From assembly GCF_022429625.1 (NCBI RefSeq), contig NZ_CP092483.1, positions 186,001 through 250,000 on the forward strand: 64,000 nt of DNA, in the 5' to 3' direction. Below are positions 3,642 to 45,494 of the stretch, one piece after another. Position numbers and translations under genes: made by a program. The stretch comes from Devosia lacusdianchii. Its GTDB lineage: Bacteria; Pseudomonadota; Alphaproteobacteria; Rhizobiales; Devosiaceae. Each line of letters begins with the position of its first letter. Within the stretch, counting starts at the first letter, position 1. The notes under the pieces are model-generated. The model saw only the letters and a program-made list of their open reading frames with translations, was not told where the DNA came from and made no database searches.

Positions 3642-3972
3642 GCCCTACCTGTCTCCGAAATCGACTGCGTCCTGCTACTATTGCCCCTTTCTAGCAGATC
3701 GCGGCAGGCAATTTCATGCAATCTGCACCATCTCGCACCGCGTCGCGACAGAAACATCCAGCGTTAGGTCGTATCGGCGCAACAATATTGCAGCTTGCCT
3801 TCCCAGCGCGCGCGCTTCCATCACTTCGAGCCGTATGCGTCGGGATGGAAGTGGACCAGCCGTTTGCCGTTCGTGACGCTCGACCAAGCTGCAAGGCCAA
3901 TGCCGCATTGTGCCTCGCCCAATAGTTGCATCTTTGCGGCAGACGGTAGGCATTTCGGTGCTAATCTAGCTC
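3642..3972. other. Intergenic region, no convincing gene
   Basis: About 330 bases upstream of the dadA-like gene. Both strands carry short open frames but none has a recognisable protein pattern, and the strands are mutually overlapping shadows. The dadA promoter must lie here on the minus strand. I see no strong repeat or hairpin. Confidence 0.4.
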
Positions 3973-4179
3973 ATGGACAGCTTAACCCGGTATCACCTCG
4001 CCACCCATCAGGATGGGACCTGGCATGTCATCGACATGATGACTGGCGAGCCCGCAGACACCCAGATGCAGGACGGAAGTTGGCGTAGGCTTTATCGGCT
4101 CGCGCGGTGGGAAGCGGAGCTGTGGTCCACATCGCTGAACAAGACCGCAGGGATGGCTTGGCGGCAGACGCCGCTTTGA
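3973..4179 (+). CDS. Short hypothetical protein
   Basis: A 68-residue frame starting MDSLTRYHLATHQDGTWHVI and containing VIDMMTGEPADTQM. The pattern of a short query-like segment followed by DGTWHVID..TGEPA resembles small conserved proteins of rhizobia whose function is unknown, but in those the remainder usually continues with an acidic LDNEEADDLVDLLN-like helix, which is missing here. The frame could therefore be truncated or frameshifted after about residue 35. No convincing ribosome-binding site precedes the ATG. Low confidence. Confidence 0.35.
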   Translation: MDSLTRYHLATHQDGTWHVIDMMTGEPADTQMQDGSWRRLYRLARWEAELWSTSLNKTAGMAWRQTPL

Positions 4180-4392
4180 ACCCAGCTATCCGCTGGAGGT
4201 GGGCGACCTTGATGCCTCGCCTAGCCACGCCTTGAAAGGAACGCATTGCGAAAGTAGGGATGATGCTGCTTGCCGTATGTCCGTCGGCAGCAAATGGCGC
4301 TTGCCGATCCACCGACTTTGCGAATGTTGATATCCCGGTTGCGTCCTGCGCCGGGCAGCTCAGCTGCCTTCGGCAGCGAGAAAAGGCTAGCC

Positions 4393-4641
4393 GTGACCAC
4401 CTTTGACTATGCTGCGTCTGCAGATCTCTATCCAAGCCGTGTCGCTCGCGGGTCCGCTAAGGTAACCTACAGACGCTTCGGACGGGCGGCGGAAGCCCTC
4501 CGATACGCCATTGAAGACATGCCGACCAAGCTTCTGAGGGGCACCCTGCTAGAGGTCGACGAACGTCGCTTCACCGGCGAACAGATCCGTGAACTCTATG
4601 ATGCGTCGGCCTATCCACTGGACCGGTCGGTGGCACCATGA
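4393..4641 (+). CDS. Conserved small protein of unknown function
   Basis: A GTG at 4393, preceded by AAAAGG, opens an 82-residue frame. It contains FGRAAEALRYAIEDMPTKLL and the acidic LLEVDERRFTGEQIRELYDA, then a short C-terminal tail. I recall similar roughly 80-residue proteins of unknown function in Hyphomicrobiales, with the same order of a basic linker, an amphipathic helix and a VDE.RF...IR.LY motif; this recollection could not be checked. The stop overlaps the start of the next gene by four bases (ATGA), which supports both as real and translationally coupled. An upstream ATG at 4270 is rejected because the added 41 residues look random. Confidence 0.6.
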   Translation: MTTFDYAASADLYPSRVARGSAKVTYRRFGRAAEALRYAIEDMPTKLLRGTLLEVDERRFTGEQIRELYDASAYPLDRSVAP

Positions 4642-4868
4642 TTGTCGATCAAAAGCTGACCAACGCAGCGCCCAATGGCTCTTTCTTCACATACGGTCTT
4701 GTCGGAGCATTGCTGGCAGCATGCGCGCTAGTGGCCGTTGCAAGTTTCTACGGCATCAGTCTGGCACCGCATCTGGCATTGGTTTCCGGCCTTCTTGGAT
4801 TCGCCTTTGCAGGCGGCGGAATGCTGCATGTCAGGCGCACGGCACTGTATCGGCGAGCCCTGCCGTGA
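4638..4868 (+). CDS. Small integral membrane protein
   Basis: A 76-residue product with two predicted transmembrane helices, at about residues 17-40 (FFTYGLVGALLAACALVAVA) and 43-65 (SLAPHLALVSGLLGFAFAGG), joined by a tight turn, and a short basic C-terminus. It overlaps the preceding small gene by ATGA and so is probably expressed from the same transcript. Nothing in the sequence indicates a specific function. It could be a membrane anchor or partner for its cytoplasmic neighbour. Confidence 0.5.
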   Translation: MIVDQKLTNAAPNGSFFTYGLVGALLAACALVAVASFYGISLAPHLALVSGLLGFAFAGGGMLHVRRTALYRRALP

Positions 4869-5041
4869 GCACCGCACAAATACTGCCGTTTGTCCGGCTT
4901 GGGATACGGATGGTTCCGCCATCAATTTCCCTCGACATTGGATATCCACGCTTCGTACGAGAAGCGCTTCGGCCCGGCCTTCCTCTTCGTGCGAGCCAGT
5001 ACGACCGCGATCAACCCTCCATCGCCTGATCAGGGAACACG

Positions 5042-5863
5042 ATGCGCATTCTGATAGGCTGTGACCTGACTTTCGAGCTGGCGCAGCCGACGCCGATCAT
5101 CGCGATGCTCAATGTTCACTCTTCGCGAGCCGCGGATTTAGAGGAGCCAGATCGACTGGTTTCCGAACCCGCTGTGCCCATCGTGGGGTATCACGACAGC
5201 GTGGGAAATTGGTGTAACCGGCTTCTCGCACCGGCCGGGCTTCTGACCTTGCGGACACGCGGCACAGTGCGCGACAGTGGTAATTGGGACCGCGCGCCAG
5301 TAGAAGCGCAGCAGATCCCGGTTCAAACTCTGCCACCCCAGACCCTGCACTTCTTGCTTGGCAGCCGCTATTGCGAGACCGACTTGCTCACGGACATCGC
5401 CTGGAAAACCTTCGGGAATGTGCCGCTAGGGCTGGCCCGCGTTCAGTCGGTGGTGGACTTTGTCCATAACCACCTTCGGTTTGACTATTCGAAGTCTCGT
5501 CCTACGCGCACCGCGTGGGAGGCTTATAACGAACGTGTCGGCGTCTGCCGCGACTTTGCCCATCTGGCCATAGCGTTCCTGCGTTGCCTGAACATCCCGG
5601 CGCGCTATTGCACGGGCTATATTAGCGACATCGGGTTGCCCCCGCCTTATGCACCGCAGGACTTTGCGGCTTGGATTGAGGTCTTCATGGGAGGCCAGTG
5701 GCTCCTGTTCGACCCTCGAAATAACGATCCCCGCATCGGCAGGATACTGATTGGGAGGGGCCGAGACGCCACAGATGTCCCTCTGACGTTGACGTTTGGG
5801 CCAAGCAAGCTGCTGGCTTTTTCCGTGATCACCGAAGAGCATGCGACAAGCGTCGTGGCATAG
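5042..5863 (+). CDS. Transglutaminase-like cysteine peptidase-fold protein
   Basis: The 273-residue protein has an N-terminal beta-rich domain (residues 1-90, FELAQPTPIIAMLNVHSSR) and a transglutaminase core. The nucleophile is in ERVGVCRDFAHLAIAFLR (Cys169), followed by LNIPARYCTGY and LLFDPRNN (Asp224). The position that usually carries the catalytic His (HAW) reads QDFAAW, with Ala209. I recall the same DFAAW in other alphaproteobacterial members, so this may be a subfamily trait. Such proteins are predicted to hydrolyse or cross-link peptide amides and often sit near circularly permuted ATP-grasp genes, which are not seen here. No signal peptide, so cytoplasmic. Confidence 0.85.
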   Translation: MRILIGCDLTFELAQPTPIIAMLNVHSSRAADLEEPDRLVSEPAVPIVGYHDSVGNWCNRLLAPAGLLTLRTRGTVRDSGNWDRAPVEAQQIPVQTLPPQTLHFLLGSRYCETDLLTDIAWKTFGNVPLGLARVQSVVDFVHNHLRFDYSKSRPTRTAWEAYNERVGVCRDFAHLAIAFLRCLNIPARYCTGYISDIGLPPPYAPQDFAAWIEVFMGGQWLLFDPRNNDPRIGRILIGRGRDATDVPLTLTFGPSKLLAFSVITEEHATSVVA

Positions 5864-43160: not shown

Positions 43161-43913
43161 CTAGTGCGAAGGATGGATGGCGTCGTTCAGATACATGCAG
43201 GTCAGCATGGTGAACACATAGGCCTGGATGGCCGCCATCAGCAGTTCGAGCGCTACAATGCCTATCGCCATGATCATCGGGGCGATCGCGGCGACCATGC
43301 CAAGAGCGCCGAGGCCACTGAGATCGACTACGAAGCCCGTGAACACCTTGAGCGTGATGTGTCCGGCGAGCATCACGGCAAACAAGCGGACCGAGTGGCT
43401 GATCGGTCGTGAAATATACGACACGATTTCGATCGGCACGATGATCGGCGCCAGATAGCCTGGAATACCGCCGGGCATGAACAGGCGGAAGAATTTCAAC
43501 CCGTGCCGCCACAGGCCATAGAGCGTGACGACGGCGAAAACCAGCAGGGCCAGCGCGGCGGTCACGATGATCTGGGCGGTTACCGTGAAGGCATAGGGGA
43601 AGATGCCGATCATGTTGGCGACGAGGATGAAGCTGAACAGCGAGAAGACCAGCGGGAAGAACCGCATGCCCTCCCGGCCGATACTGGCGAGGACCAGGTT
43701 CTCGATGCTCTGATAGGCCATTTCCGCCACCAGCTGCAGCCGGGTCGGCACCATCAGCTGCTTGCGTCCGGCCATGATCATGAAGCCGGCCACCAGCGCC
43801 GTCGTCAGCATCATATAGGCCGAGGCATTGGTGAAGCTCAGGTCCTGCCCGGCGATCGGGGGCAAGGGGAAGATGGGCTCGACGACGAATTGATGGATGG
43901 GGTCAGTAGCCAT
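43161..43913 (-). CDS. Orphan F0 ATP synthase subunit a (AtpB paralogue)
   Basis: The 250-residue protein is a full-length a-subunit of alphaproteobacterial type: [78 protein letters not shown], and the essential stretch [19 protein letters not shown], with the half-channel arginine at Arg176. It is not followed by the c- and b-subunit genes normally found in the F0 operon. Instead it lies downstream of a 57-residue membrane protein gene, a ChaA-like antiporter and an MscS channel. A second, canonical atpB elsewhere is therefore likely. It could supply a proton or sodium path in another complex. Expression may depend on the riboswitch at 44135-44184. Confidence 0.85.
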
Positions 43914-43940: not shown

Positions 43941-44114
43941 CTATTTGTGCAGCCGCATGGCGGTCAGGCCGATGACCAGGCCACACAGGGATGGGATGAA
44001 GGAAAGGGCGAGCGTGGCGCCAAGGCCGCTCACAAGGCTCAAGTCGACCATGATGCCTGCGAGCATGTAGCCGAGCAGGCACCCGACAAGGGCGAGCATG
44101 TTTGCGACGGACAT
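43941..44114 (-). CDS. 57-residue membrane protein upstream of the orphan a-subunit
   Basis: On the minus strand, ATG 44114 opens a 57-codon frame: MSVANMLALVGCLLGYMLAG, then SLVSGLGATLALSFIPSLCG and the tail LTAMRLHK. Two transmembrane helices flank a short loop. A Shine-Dalgarno GAGGAG lies six to eight bases before the ATG. The Gly-rich helices and position before an a-subunit gene recall AtpI/AtpZ-type small proteins of ATPase operons, but no identity is claimed. Two ACGR-loop hairpins upstream make it a probable guanidine-II riboswitch-controlled gene. The gene is too short for ordinary ORF cut-offs. Confidence 0.75.
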   Translation of the reverse strand: MSVANMLALVGCLLGYMLAGIMVDLSLVSGLGATLALSFIPSLCGLVIGLTAMRLHK

Positions 44115-44134
44115 GGGGGGACTCCTCGAATGGA

Positions 44135-44184
44135 GGGGTCGTCCCCGAAAGCAAGCCCTGGTACCCGGCGGGTCGTCCCGCCGG
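44135..44184 (-). promoter_or_regulatory. Guanidine-II (mini-ykkC) riboswitch candidate B, upstream of the 57-residue gene
   Basis: On the minus strand, first CCGGCGGG-ACGA-CCCGCCGG (44184-44165), then an 18-base linker, then GGGG-ACGA-CCCC (44146-44135), followed by GAGGAG and ATG at 44114. Two tandem hairpins with ACGR tetraloops just before a Shine-Dalgarno are the defining features of the guanidine-II class. The hairpin at 44165-44184 also starts 13 bases after the chaA stop. Confidence 0.75.
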
Positions 44185-44196
44185 CGGGCAATCAGG

Positions 44197-45345
44197 TCAG
44201 GTTACGAAAAGCAGCACGCTGAATACGGCGAACAGCGCCAGATGCAGCGTGCCCTGCAGGGCCGAGGCGCGCTGGCCCATGAAGGTCAGCGCCGTCAGGC
44301 CAACCGTCAACAGCAGCAACACCGTCTCGGTCGGGCTCACGCCCATGACCACGGTCTTGCCGGTGACGAGGCCCACGGTCAGCACTGCCGGAACGGTGAG
44401 TCCAACAGTCGAAACGAAGGCTCCAAGGCACAGGTTGATCGAGCGCTGCAACTGGTCGGCCATCGCCGCCTTGATCGCGGTAATGGATTCCGGCGTGAAC
44501 ACGATAATGGCGATCAGCACGCCGCCCAGGGCCACCGGCGCGCCAACTGCGGCAATGCCAAAATCGATGATCAGCGCCAGGTCATGCGCGAGCAGAACGA
44601 TGGGCAGCATGAGCGCAACCAGCAGAATCGACCGGATAACGATGCCGCGCTTGTCGAGCGGCTCCTTGCGCTCCACCGGCGTGCCCGTGACCATGGGCTC
44701 CACCGGTACTGCCAGATGCCCGGCCTCGGGCTGCACGAAGAAGCGCTTGTAGCCCCGCGTTTGCATGAGCAGGAACACAGCATAGAGAACGATGGTCAGG
44801 ATTGCGAAAGCCACCGCCTGCACTGGCCAGAAGGTACCGTCGCCGGTGCTGAGCGTATTGGGCAGGATCAAGCCGATACCGGCCAAGAGCAGCGTCATCG
44901 CCACATAGGCCAGCGCGCCCTGCGAATTGTATTCCTGTTCGCCGAACCGCCGTCCCCCGACGACGAGGCAGATGCCCATCACCAGGTTGAGGATGATCAT
45001 CATAACGGCAAAGATCGAGTCCCGCCCAATGGTCGGATTTTCGCCCGGGCCGAGCAGCACCGCAGCGATCAGAATGACTTCGATCGCCACGATGGCCAGC
45101 GTCAGGATCAGCGTGCCATAGGGCTCGCCGAGCTGGTGCGCCAGGTAATCCGCCTCGTGCACGACCCCGAAAGCCGCCATCAGGATAATGGCGAAGATCA
45201 CGACAAAGCAGACGATGGCGACGATCGGATCGATCGGATCATGCAGCCAGGTGGGGCCACCGATCAGGAAGACAACGACGACCGCCCAGGCGATCAGCAG
45301 CTTCAGTATGGTACTGTTTGGAATGTGCTCGCGGATTGACGACAC
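44197..45345 (-). CDS. chaA: ChaA-like cation/proton antiporter (CaCA superfamily)
   Basis: A GTG at 45345 opens a 382-residue protein with eleven or so transmembrane helices in two homologous halves. The first repeat shows HQLGEPYGTLILTLAIVAIEVILIAAV and the second VALGGVLIAIIVFTPESITAIKAAMADQLQRSINLCLG, with the conserved acidic residues in GEPYGTLILTL..IE and TPES that bind the cation in the CaCA family. The match to E. coli ChaA (Ca2+/Na+/K+:H+ antiporter) runs through KRFFV..EAGH. Two ACGR-loop hairpins in its 5' leader suggest guanidine-II riboswitch control, which would make guanidinium a candidate substrate or inducer. The gene follows the mscS-type gene and precedes the small F0-associated genes. 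Confidence 0.88.
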   Translation of the reverse strand: MSSIREHIPNSTILKLLIAWAVVVVFLIGGPTWLHDPIDPIVAIVCFVVIFAIILMAAFGVVHEADYLAHQLGEPYGTLILTLAIVAIEVILIAAVLLGPGENPTIGRDSIFAVMMIILNLVMGICLVVGGRRFGEQEYNSQGALAYVAMTLLLAGIGLILPNTLSTGDGTFWPVQAVAFAILTIVLYAVFLLMQTRGYKRFFVQPEAGHLAVPVEPMVTGTPVERKEPLDKRGIVIRSILLVALMLPIVLLAHDLALIIDFGIAAVGAPVALGGVLIAIIVFTPESITAIKAAMADQLQRSINLCLGAFVSTVGLTVPAVLTVGLVTGKTVVMGVSPTETVLLLLTVGLTALTFMGQRASALQGTLHLALFAVFSVLLFVT

Positions 45346-45360
45346 GGTTCATGCCTCGCT

Positions 45361-45405
45361 GGGGCCGTCCCCTGTCGATCGAACCGCTTCCTCGGGGTCG
45401 TCCCC
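45361..45405 (-). promoter_or_regulatory. Guanidine-II (mini-ykkC) riboswitch candidate A, upstream of chaA
   Basis: On the minus strand, GGGG-ACGA-CCCC (45405-45394), a 21-base linker, then GGGG-ACGG-CCCC (45372-45361), 16 bases before the GTG start. Both loops fit ACGR, with CAACA/CGACA flanking each stem 5'. The two-hairpin architecture, loop sequences and distance to the start match the mini-ykkC/guanidine-II consensus as I know it. Confidence 0.8.
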
Positions 45406-45494
45406 TGTTGCGAACGGCAGTAGGCCGTTGCCAATCCATAATCGAGCAAGCTGGAGATGTCCAGCGAGGCGGAACCGGCTCGAAAATGCCGGTC

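Follow-up and report, generated by a model that had tools for sequence, protein, structure and literature searches.

The closest described relatives of the locus reported here are the guanidine-II riboswitches (mini-ykkC; Rfam RF01068), which precede gdx/sugE genes as tandem hairpins with ACGR loops. As genes associated with mini-ykkC, passages of PMC3766115 and PMC2864571 name multidrug transporters, emrE, and genes for urea and agmatine utilisation, and a passage of the review PMC12186494 describes efflux as the sole guanidine-specific response characterised. In the present work, a 64-kb stretch (G000:C1:186001-250000, hereafter the window) of the single-contig 4.36 Mb genome of Devosia lacusdianchii was analysed. 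Two leaders with tandem ACGR hairpins stand on its minus strand, one before a gene for a ChaA-like antiporter and one before a 57-residue gene and a paralogue of the F0 a-subunit (AtpB). As in the known system, the hairpins lie just upstream of the genes, one leader scores above the Rfam cut-off, and the genome also has a standard gdx case. However, where the known system has an SMR exporter or a guanidine carboxylase, the downstream genes here encode a CaCA-type antiporter and a paralogue of the a-subunit, and the chaA leader is under the cut-off. A second parallel is the Na+-I riboswitch, which part of PMC9971707 describes as a cation-sensing riboswitch over ion transporters and ATP synthase parts; the RNA and the ligand are different there, and whole-complex genes stand in place of a single a-subunit paralogue. 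Comparison supports the assignment of both leaders to the guanidine-II class, with guanidine binding predicted, and riboswitch control of the chaA-like gene and the a-subunit paralogue gene is very probable. The features are as follows.

45360..45409, minus strand: predicted guanidine-II riboswitch before the chaA-like gene (RF01068 24.8 bits, tandem pattern, orthologous leaders)
45405-45394 and 45372-45361, minus strand: chaA-side hairpins P1 (GGGG-ACGA-CCCC) and P2 (GGGG-ACGG-CCCC)
45354..45357, minus strand: Shine-Dalgarno-like GAGG ahead of the chaA-like gene, which starts with GTG (by sequence reading)
44197..45345, minus strand: ChaA-like CaCA-family cation/proton antiporter, 382 aa (open reading frame [ORF], PF01699, PDB relative)
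44134..44184, minus strand: predicted guanidine-II riboswitch of the atpB side, upstream of the genes for the 57-residue protein and the a-subunit paralogue (RF01068 38.5 bits)
44184-44165 and 44146-44135, minus strand: atpB-side hairpins P1 and P2
44122..44127, minus strand: Shine-Dalgarno-like GAGGAG before the 57-residue gene (by sequence reading)
43941..44114, minus strand: 57-residue hydrophobic protein without family (ORF, relatives in Devosia)
43161..43913, minus strand: orphan F0 a-subunit (AtpB) paralogue, 250 aa (PF00119, NCBIfam)

The hairpin pairs proposed by an earlier sequence-only reading of this DNA were found where that reading had placed them. Three copies of GGGGACGRCCCC occur in the window (44135-44146, 45361-45372, and 45394-45405, all on the minus strand), all confined to the chaA-side and atpB-side leaders, compared to 0.01 expected from 100 dinucleotide shuffles of the window. 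A tandem-hairpin pattern run over the window matched exactly the two leaders, with zero matches in the 100 shuffles. Both leaders carry the tandem ACGR-loop hairpins with G-C closing pairs that define the guanidine-II class. Against RF01068 (gathering cut-off 32 bits), the atpB-side leader (44184-44134, minus strand) scored 38.5 bits, whereas the chaA-side leader (45409-45360, minus strand) scored 24.8 bits (E 0.031, with 2.6 kb searched); the covariance-model match that the earlier reading called for thus lies above the cut-off for the former and under it for the latter. In the same genome, a third guanidine-II site (38.2 bits) precedes an SMR gene, SugE/Gdx (NCBIfam 135.3 bits, cut-off 126).

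Stem covariation was assessed at 74 Rfam-picked sites anchored on both ACGR loops, where only the outer pairs count as evidence because the anchors were chosen by three inner pairs. In this comparison, whose Rfam selection favours paired stems and whose shuffles ignore relatedness, 273 of the 296 outer cells of P1 were paired, compared with a mean of 145 and a maximum of 178 among the shuffles, and an outer position showed as many as six standard pair types; the outer pairs of P2 (112 of 148) did not rise above the largest shuffle (115). The loops, which were required by the script, were ACGA in 65 and ACGG in nine of the P1 hairpins, and ACGG in 40 and ACGA in 34 of the P2 hairpins; the two innermost stem pairs hardly vary. 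That the hairpins are chance or inherited GC-rich repeats without function is scarcely credible. The sub-threshold score of the chaA leader alone would fit such a view; the shuffles of the window, on account of which chance hairpins were set aside, the covariation, the clade-wide conservation, and the plasmid case described below all oppose it. In folding calculations, the unpaired fraction of the Shine-Dalgarno element was 0.17 free vs 0.33 with the hairpins held on the atpB side, 0.55 vs 0.37 on the chaA side, and 0.40 vs 0.12 for the gdx control; release of this element by the ligand would be weakly supported by such modelling on the atpB side, and not for chaA or the gdx control.

Within the genus, at least one guanidine-II site at E <= 0.001 was found in 68 of 75 genomes. 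ChaA orthologues (at least 74% identity) were present in seven of the 75, the window's genome counted, and all seven genes have a tandem ACGR pair immediately upstream. In six of the seven, there is a second tandem pair followed by an a-subunit paralogue 77-82% identical to that of the window. Relatives of the 57-residue gene (40-43% identical) were found at the threshold used in five of the six modules of the genus, the window included; in G064/L080, the a-subunit gene directly follows the riboswitch, with no space for the small gene. The pairing of this gene with the atpB paralogue, which the sequence-only reading had described, therefore holds for the window but is not a constant part of the module. 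The 57-residue protein had no match in Pfam or NCBIfam scans; a kinship with AtpI/AtpZ would be a guess from its appearance. Ordinary ChaA was considered as the owner of the leader and rejected, since the eight distant ChaA proteins of the genus (34-41% identical) are without a tandem GG-ACGR-CC pair.

The chaA-like gene starts with GTG 15 nt past P2. Its product scored 73.5 bits against Na_Ca_ex (PF01699, gathering cut-off 24.9), which places it in the CaCA family, and has the PDB relative 4k1c 'Vacuolar calcium ion transporter' (E 9.6e-11). The best NCBIfam match was ChaA (NF007895), at 186.1 bits under a cut-off of 505, and the antiporter identity given earlier thus stands as ChaA-like, not as ChaA. 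E. coli ChaA, a CaCA-family Na+/K+/Ca2+-H+ antiporter, shares PF01699 and is the best-matching NCBIfam family; however, the ChaA-like protein belongs to a separate clade, in which S110, L121, H254, and F310 are among the fixed residues (56 of 56 rows). The acidic residues E89 and E286 of the alpha repeats, which we take to be ion-binding, were present in all 13 rows listed and invariant in a separate seven-row alignment.

To follow this clade beyond the genus, 80 of 107 loci from a ChaA-alignment scan with one genome per species were kept, and the Rfam search covered the genomes of 79 of the 80 (all except L124). Fifty-six of the 80 loci were tabulated (L092-L145, L153, and L171), and the other 24 had no guanidine-II at E <= 0.001 anywhere in their genomes. 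Of the 56 tabulated loci, 47 had an Rfam match at E <= 0.001 no further than 800 bases before chaA. Contig numbers were unmatched in the script behind this count, and the narrow 800-base window guards its rows; a row for another site in L099 (4544) was dropped as a cross-contig coordinate coincidence. By direct scan, the leaders of L098, L100, L111, L124, and L144 scored 26.1-33.9 bits, only that of L124 above the cut-off, and a tandem pair was seen in the hairpin scan of L095. No leader was found upstream of chaA in L128, L132, and L153 by Rfam and hairpin scans.

In an 118-row ChaA tree, built by a quick method with SH-aLRT support only, all riboswitch rows fell within one 56-row clade (SH-aLRT 99), the deep placement being uncertain because of long branches (Microbacterium, Rhodoplanes, Stenotrophomonas). 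A tandem ACGR leader was present in 54 of the 56 rows, L128 and L132 being without, so that the conservation before homologous chaA genes of related genomes expected by the sequence-only reading was borne out. The script itself labelled 51 rows with and five without; L077, L098, and L100 were reassigned by their Rfam scores (30.3 bits for L077 in G038, although the stem filter said no, and 26.1 and 29.6 bits for L098 and L100). Outside the clade, none of 62 rows had a tandem leader; 25 of them (L146-L170) were genome-searched with Rfam and the other 37 were covered by the stem-based hairpin scan alone, because of which weak leaders may be missed there. The leader hosts are Devosia, Mesorhizobium, Aminobacter, Shinella, Pseudochelatococcus, Rhizobium/Agrobacterium, Paracoccus, Roseivivax, Rhodoplanes, Achromobacter, Variovorax, Acidovorax, Hydrogenophaga, Pseudomonas, and Microbacterium; the riboswitch-linked chaA thus extends over the Alpha-, Beta-, and Gammaproteobacteria and one actinobacterium. 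Moreover, the chaA site was the sole guanidine-II at E <= 0.001 in all eight Achromobacter and all five Acidovorax genomes of the set. These comparisons support a tie between the leaders and one clade of ChaA-like antiporters, and likewise support reading the chaA-side leader of the window as guanidine-II despite its sub-cut-off score.

By ORF reading only, the genes 3' of chaA in 28 loci were apparently unrelated. Short hydrophobic ORFs, alike by eye, precede chaA in Variovorax (L133:3763-3978; no Pfam family) and Ottowia (L128, about 3770-3950). On plasmid paAMD1 (L443, NZ_OX341518.1) of Aminobacter niigataensis MD1, presumably a metformin degrader, a chaA-like gene has a sub-threshold guanidine-II leader of 29.6 bits. 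In the window, a gene for an MscS-type mechanosensitive channel (PF00924; 45495-47606, minus strand) lies directly upstream of the chaA leader.

The a-subunit paralogue scored 208.8 bits against ATP-synt_A (PF00119), above the curated cut-off, and 342.6 bits against NCBIfam F0F1 subunit A (NF004482, cut-off 225). A second atpB copy of the genome is located at G000:C1:905693-906460. By ORF reading, with the window not searched for other atp genes, the neighbours of the paralogue are the antiporter and the 57-residue gene only. An alternative ATPase such as an N-ATPase was rejected, since the altF1 a-subunit model gave 61.6 bits (cut-off 302) and no adjoining atp gene was seen by ORF reading. 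Twenty-six riboswitch-linked copies and 38 other a-subunit copies, the latter termed housekeeping with operons not checked one by one, were split by a single branch (support 99/95). Guanidine-II was found by Rfam upstream of all 26, and a strict tandem scan at most 600 nt upstream matched 24 of the 26 vs none of the 38. A second atpB copy was present in all 20 paralogue-bearing genomes examined, of 26. Here, too, the comparison supports a tie of the leaders to one clade, that of these F0 a-subunit paralogues.

In window numbering, V158I, L173H, N180V, and V226M are fixed differences between the two groups (26 of 26 vs 38 of 38), and F166Y (25 of 26) and A235T (24 of 26) are nearly fixed in the paralogue. 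E. coli was not aligned; its positions aR210, aL207, and aN214 were assigned by counting from R176, and aH245 and aQ252 by the 7-residue spacing. The stator arginine R176 (aR210), which aligns with the arginine of solved a-subunits, is invariant in the 26 and the 38 rows and is flanked by L173H (aL207 site) and N180V (aN214 site). In total, 63 columns are invariant across both groups, including R176, H185, E223, Q230, E162, and S165, and in terms of E. coli the sites of aE196, aS199, aE219 (His here), aH245 (Glu here), and aQ252. The paralogue thus resembles the housekeeping subunit in exceeding the family cut-offs and in the stator arginine and most channel residues, but differs from it in forming its own clade, in the fixed L173H/N180V, and in having no adjoining atp gene seen.

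These residues bear on whether the paralogue would be an impaired or regulatory decoy, which would compete for its place in F0 and slow or block it under guanidine stress to save ATP or to stop a proton leak. A channel-polar residue is lost (N to V), and parts of PMC11121307 report that aN214V in E. coli reduces ATP-coupled proton conductance and that an aN214L simulation breaks the proton chain and cuts hydration near the c-ring carboxylate; pKa values are shifted by aN214L according to part of PMC8754430. However, growth on succinate was kept in the aN214V strains in the same passages of PMC11121307, and the 63 invariant columns named above speak against an impaired subunit. A decoy is accordingly held to be improbable.

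A plasmid protein search with the paralogue returned 10 records, of which eight were read, omitting two Sinorhizobium records that scored the same as one read. Among the eight, the His/Val signature and the tandem leader occurred only in the best match, pT1293b of Phyllobacterium sp. T1293 (SHSVRLFAV, upstream guanidine-II of 34.0 bits). Six of the eight carry SLSVRLFAN or SLSIRLFAN without a tandem pair, one of these Leu/Asn copies being annotated within an atp operon, and in the Methylobacterium bullatum record neither the signature pattern nor a tandem pair was found. In G273, from a related genus of the same family (L275, L359; G273:C1:609817-613210), a riboswitch, the atpB paralogue, a second riboswitch, and gdx stand in tandem, the second site scoring 31.8 bits, slightly under the cut-off. 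This arrangement, the gdx switch in the window's own genome, and the near-invariance of the two innermost pairs and of the script-required ACGR loops (74 sites) all speak against an altered ligand, such as a substituted guanidine, a biguanide, or another cation, for a guanidine-II relative. We regard such a ligand as very unlikely, even with a gene set unlike the usual one and the sub-threshold leader before the chaA-like gene on the A. niigataensis MD1 plasmid in its favour.

The downstream genes of 202 guanidine-II loci, 195 after removal of seven duplicates, were surveyed by tblastn, in which a single query stood for each gene family. The sample comprised the best-scoring genus sites (about 30), all 98 phylum-sample sites, part of the order sample, and non-chaA sites elsewhere in chaA genomes; because of this sampling, chaA sites are not in the 195-site survey. 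SMR/gdx followed 103 of the 195 sites, PACE 30, urea/guanidine carboxylase 24, UAAP1 23, atpB 10, and Amt two, with none assigned for three. In the phylum sample of 98 sites, gdx accounted for 64, carboxylase for 21, UAAP1 for seven, PACE for five, and atpB for one. As to the PACE-type efflux genes, which directly follow guanidine-II at 30 of the 195 distinct sites (e.g., L203:2256-2681, with PF05232 163 bits and NCBIfam PACE 140 bits, cut-off 80), we know of no report of such a pairing, although no thorough search for one was made. An ammonium transporter follows guanidine-II in two Aminobacter genomes (L209:751-2208 and L212; PF00909 for L209), the sites scoring 31.3 and 33 bits.

The comparison also supports a link of the guanidine-II class, in other lineages, to a lone MrpF and to a second NuoA, which it precedes. 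Four guanidine-II sites per locus, on both strands around 3700-5450, occur in five Rhizobium/Agrobacterium loci (L109, L110, L116, L119, and L142), one of them divergent before an MrpF and the others before chaA, a short ORF, and the a-subunit. The lone MrpF, scanned in three of the five loci, exceeded the PF04066 cut-off of 23.3 each time (59.9, 62.1, and 60.0 bits for L110, L142, and L421), and that of L110 scored 104.9 bits against NCBIfam NF004812, K+/H+ antiporter subunit F (cut-off 93). By ORF reading, the riboswitch MrpF had no adjoining mrp gene in four of the five loci; in one genome, an apparent MrpG comes after the other MrpF (L431). Three of the small inter-riboswitch Rhizobium ORFs were scanned without a family match, and conservation was not apparent. 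In three Pseudomonas loci (L123, L126, and L127), a second NuoA lies between the riboswitch and chaA, with PF00507 scores of 98.8 (L123) and 93.3 bits (L127) against a cut-off of 23.3. Each of the three genomes has another, 66% identical NuoA; in the riboswitch copy, the Asp and the Trp of the FDxEALxLFAW stretch are replaced by Glu and Tyr, respectively. NuoA is the ND3 of complex I (chain 3 in the name of PF00507).

Such a gene set might also serve a general repair of cation and energy balance. Guanidinium entry and export would disturb the membrane potential and the Na+/K+/Ca2+/H+ balance, the ChaA-like protein and MrpF would restore the latter, and the a-subunit and NuoA variants would tune coupling, e.g., by less ATP-driven pumping, with no target escape involved. 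Na+, K+, Ca2+, and H+ are substrates of the ChaA and Mrp families, and the NCBIfam name of MrpF fits this explanation. The lowered ATP-coupled proton conductance of aN214V with succinate growth left (in part of PMC11121307) is also consistent with it, as is the parallel of the Na+-I riboswitch, under which stand Na+ transporters and, in occasional cases, Na+ ATP synthases (in part of PMC9971707). However, the ligand class is guanidine and not a metal ion, and a chaA site as the sole guanidine-II in the eight Achromobacter and five Acidovorax genomes fits direct guanidinium handling. General repair is therefore a serious but rather unlikely explanation.

The best reading of the locus is a guanidinium tolerance or export module, extended to the MrpF and NuoA paralogues. 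We consider it probable that the locus is a guanidinium-stress response under two guanidine-II riboswitches, with an antiporter and replacement proton-path subunits. In the proposed sequence, guanidinium would bind both ACGR hairpins and translation would be freed; the ChaA-like cation/H+ antiporter would be turned on, and guanidinium would be exported or cation balance restored. Whether the ChaA-like protein exports guanidinium itself is evenly poised. The alternative a-subunit would take the place of the housekeeping subunit in F1F0. Free guanidinium is the same chemical group as the side chain of the stator arginine, and the non-polar Val at the aN214 site and the His at the aL207 site would hinder its reaching the rotor-ring carboxylate, while ATP synthesis would still be permitted and the stator arginine is kept. 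The NuoA and MrpF copies would likewise be guanidinium-tolerant replacements. Resistance by target replacement is familiar, e.g., from a drug-insensitive second copy of an enzyme. The proposed case would be like it in that a second copy, changed at the binding site, is induced, but the copy would be a single subunit of a membrane complex and the agent a small cation. That riboswitch control serves to replace a guanidinium-sensitive target is put forward tentatively. Still more tentative is the general claim that guanidinium poisons the F0, complex I, and Mrp proton paths, and that several lineages use guanidine-II to swap in tolerant F0 a, NuoA/ND3, and MrpF subunits beside a new CaCA exporter.

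Several points weigh against this reading. The chaA-side leader taken alone scores under the Rfam cut-off, and simple folding is non-discriminating and shows occlusion of the ribosome site poorly. Guanidine binding, induced expression, and the entry of any paralogue into its complex are predictions from sequence. None of the 98 phylum-sample sites stands before chaA and only one, the window's own, before atpB; the pairing is therefore lineage-restricted. The riboswitch NuoA of L123 is under all three NCBIfam NuoA cut-offs (74.2/163, 62.5/145, and 48.5/155), as scored for this copy only, and the riboswitch NuoA shows hardly any change in the loop at which metformin is proposed to bind. The a-subunit of 5dn6, which we take to be that of Paracoccus, likewise has His at the aL207 site, and therefore only N to V is special there. 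Furthermore, a non-polar residue at position 214 breaks the proton chain in the simulation described in part of PMC11121307, which would favour an impaired subunit, and part of PMC8754430 reports aN214 as naturally hydrophobic or Gly in Toxoplasma and Thermus.

The RNA class itself is already known, and the downstream pairing with chaA-like and a-subunit genes is apparently unreported. In the open-licence literature outside the 2017 guanidine-II paper and the supplement of PMC2864571, a search that did not include the names NuoA and MrpF found neither chaA nor an F0 a-subunit reported under guanidine-II, and the novelty claimed by the sequence-only reading was left uncontradicted.

The link of guanidine-II to single F0, complex I, and Mrp subunits names candidate guanidine targets and offers ready genetic tests. 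One candidate is ND3, the complex I subunit at which the biguanide metformin is proposed to bind in part of PMC6514102, a paper that also cites 'Guanidines and oxidative phosphorylations', published in 1955. Besides pumping guanidine out, cells may answer it by swapping the blockable parts of their membrane machines. If this is true, the CaCA clade, as an exporter of guanidinium, would add a second type to the SMR exporters, and the riboswitches would drive an inducible target replacement of bioenergetic subunits, which would show what guanidine, and perhaps biguanide drugs, attack.

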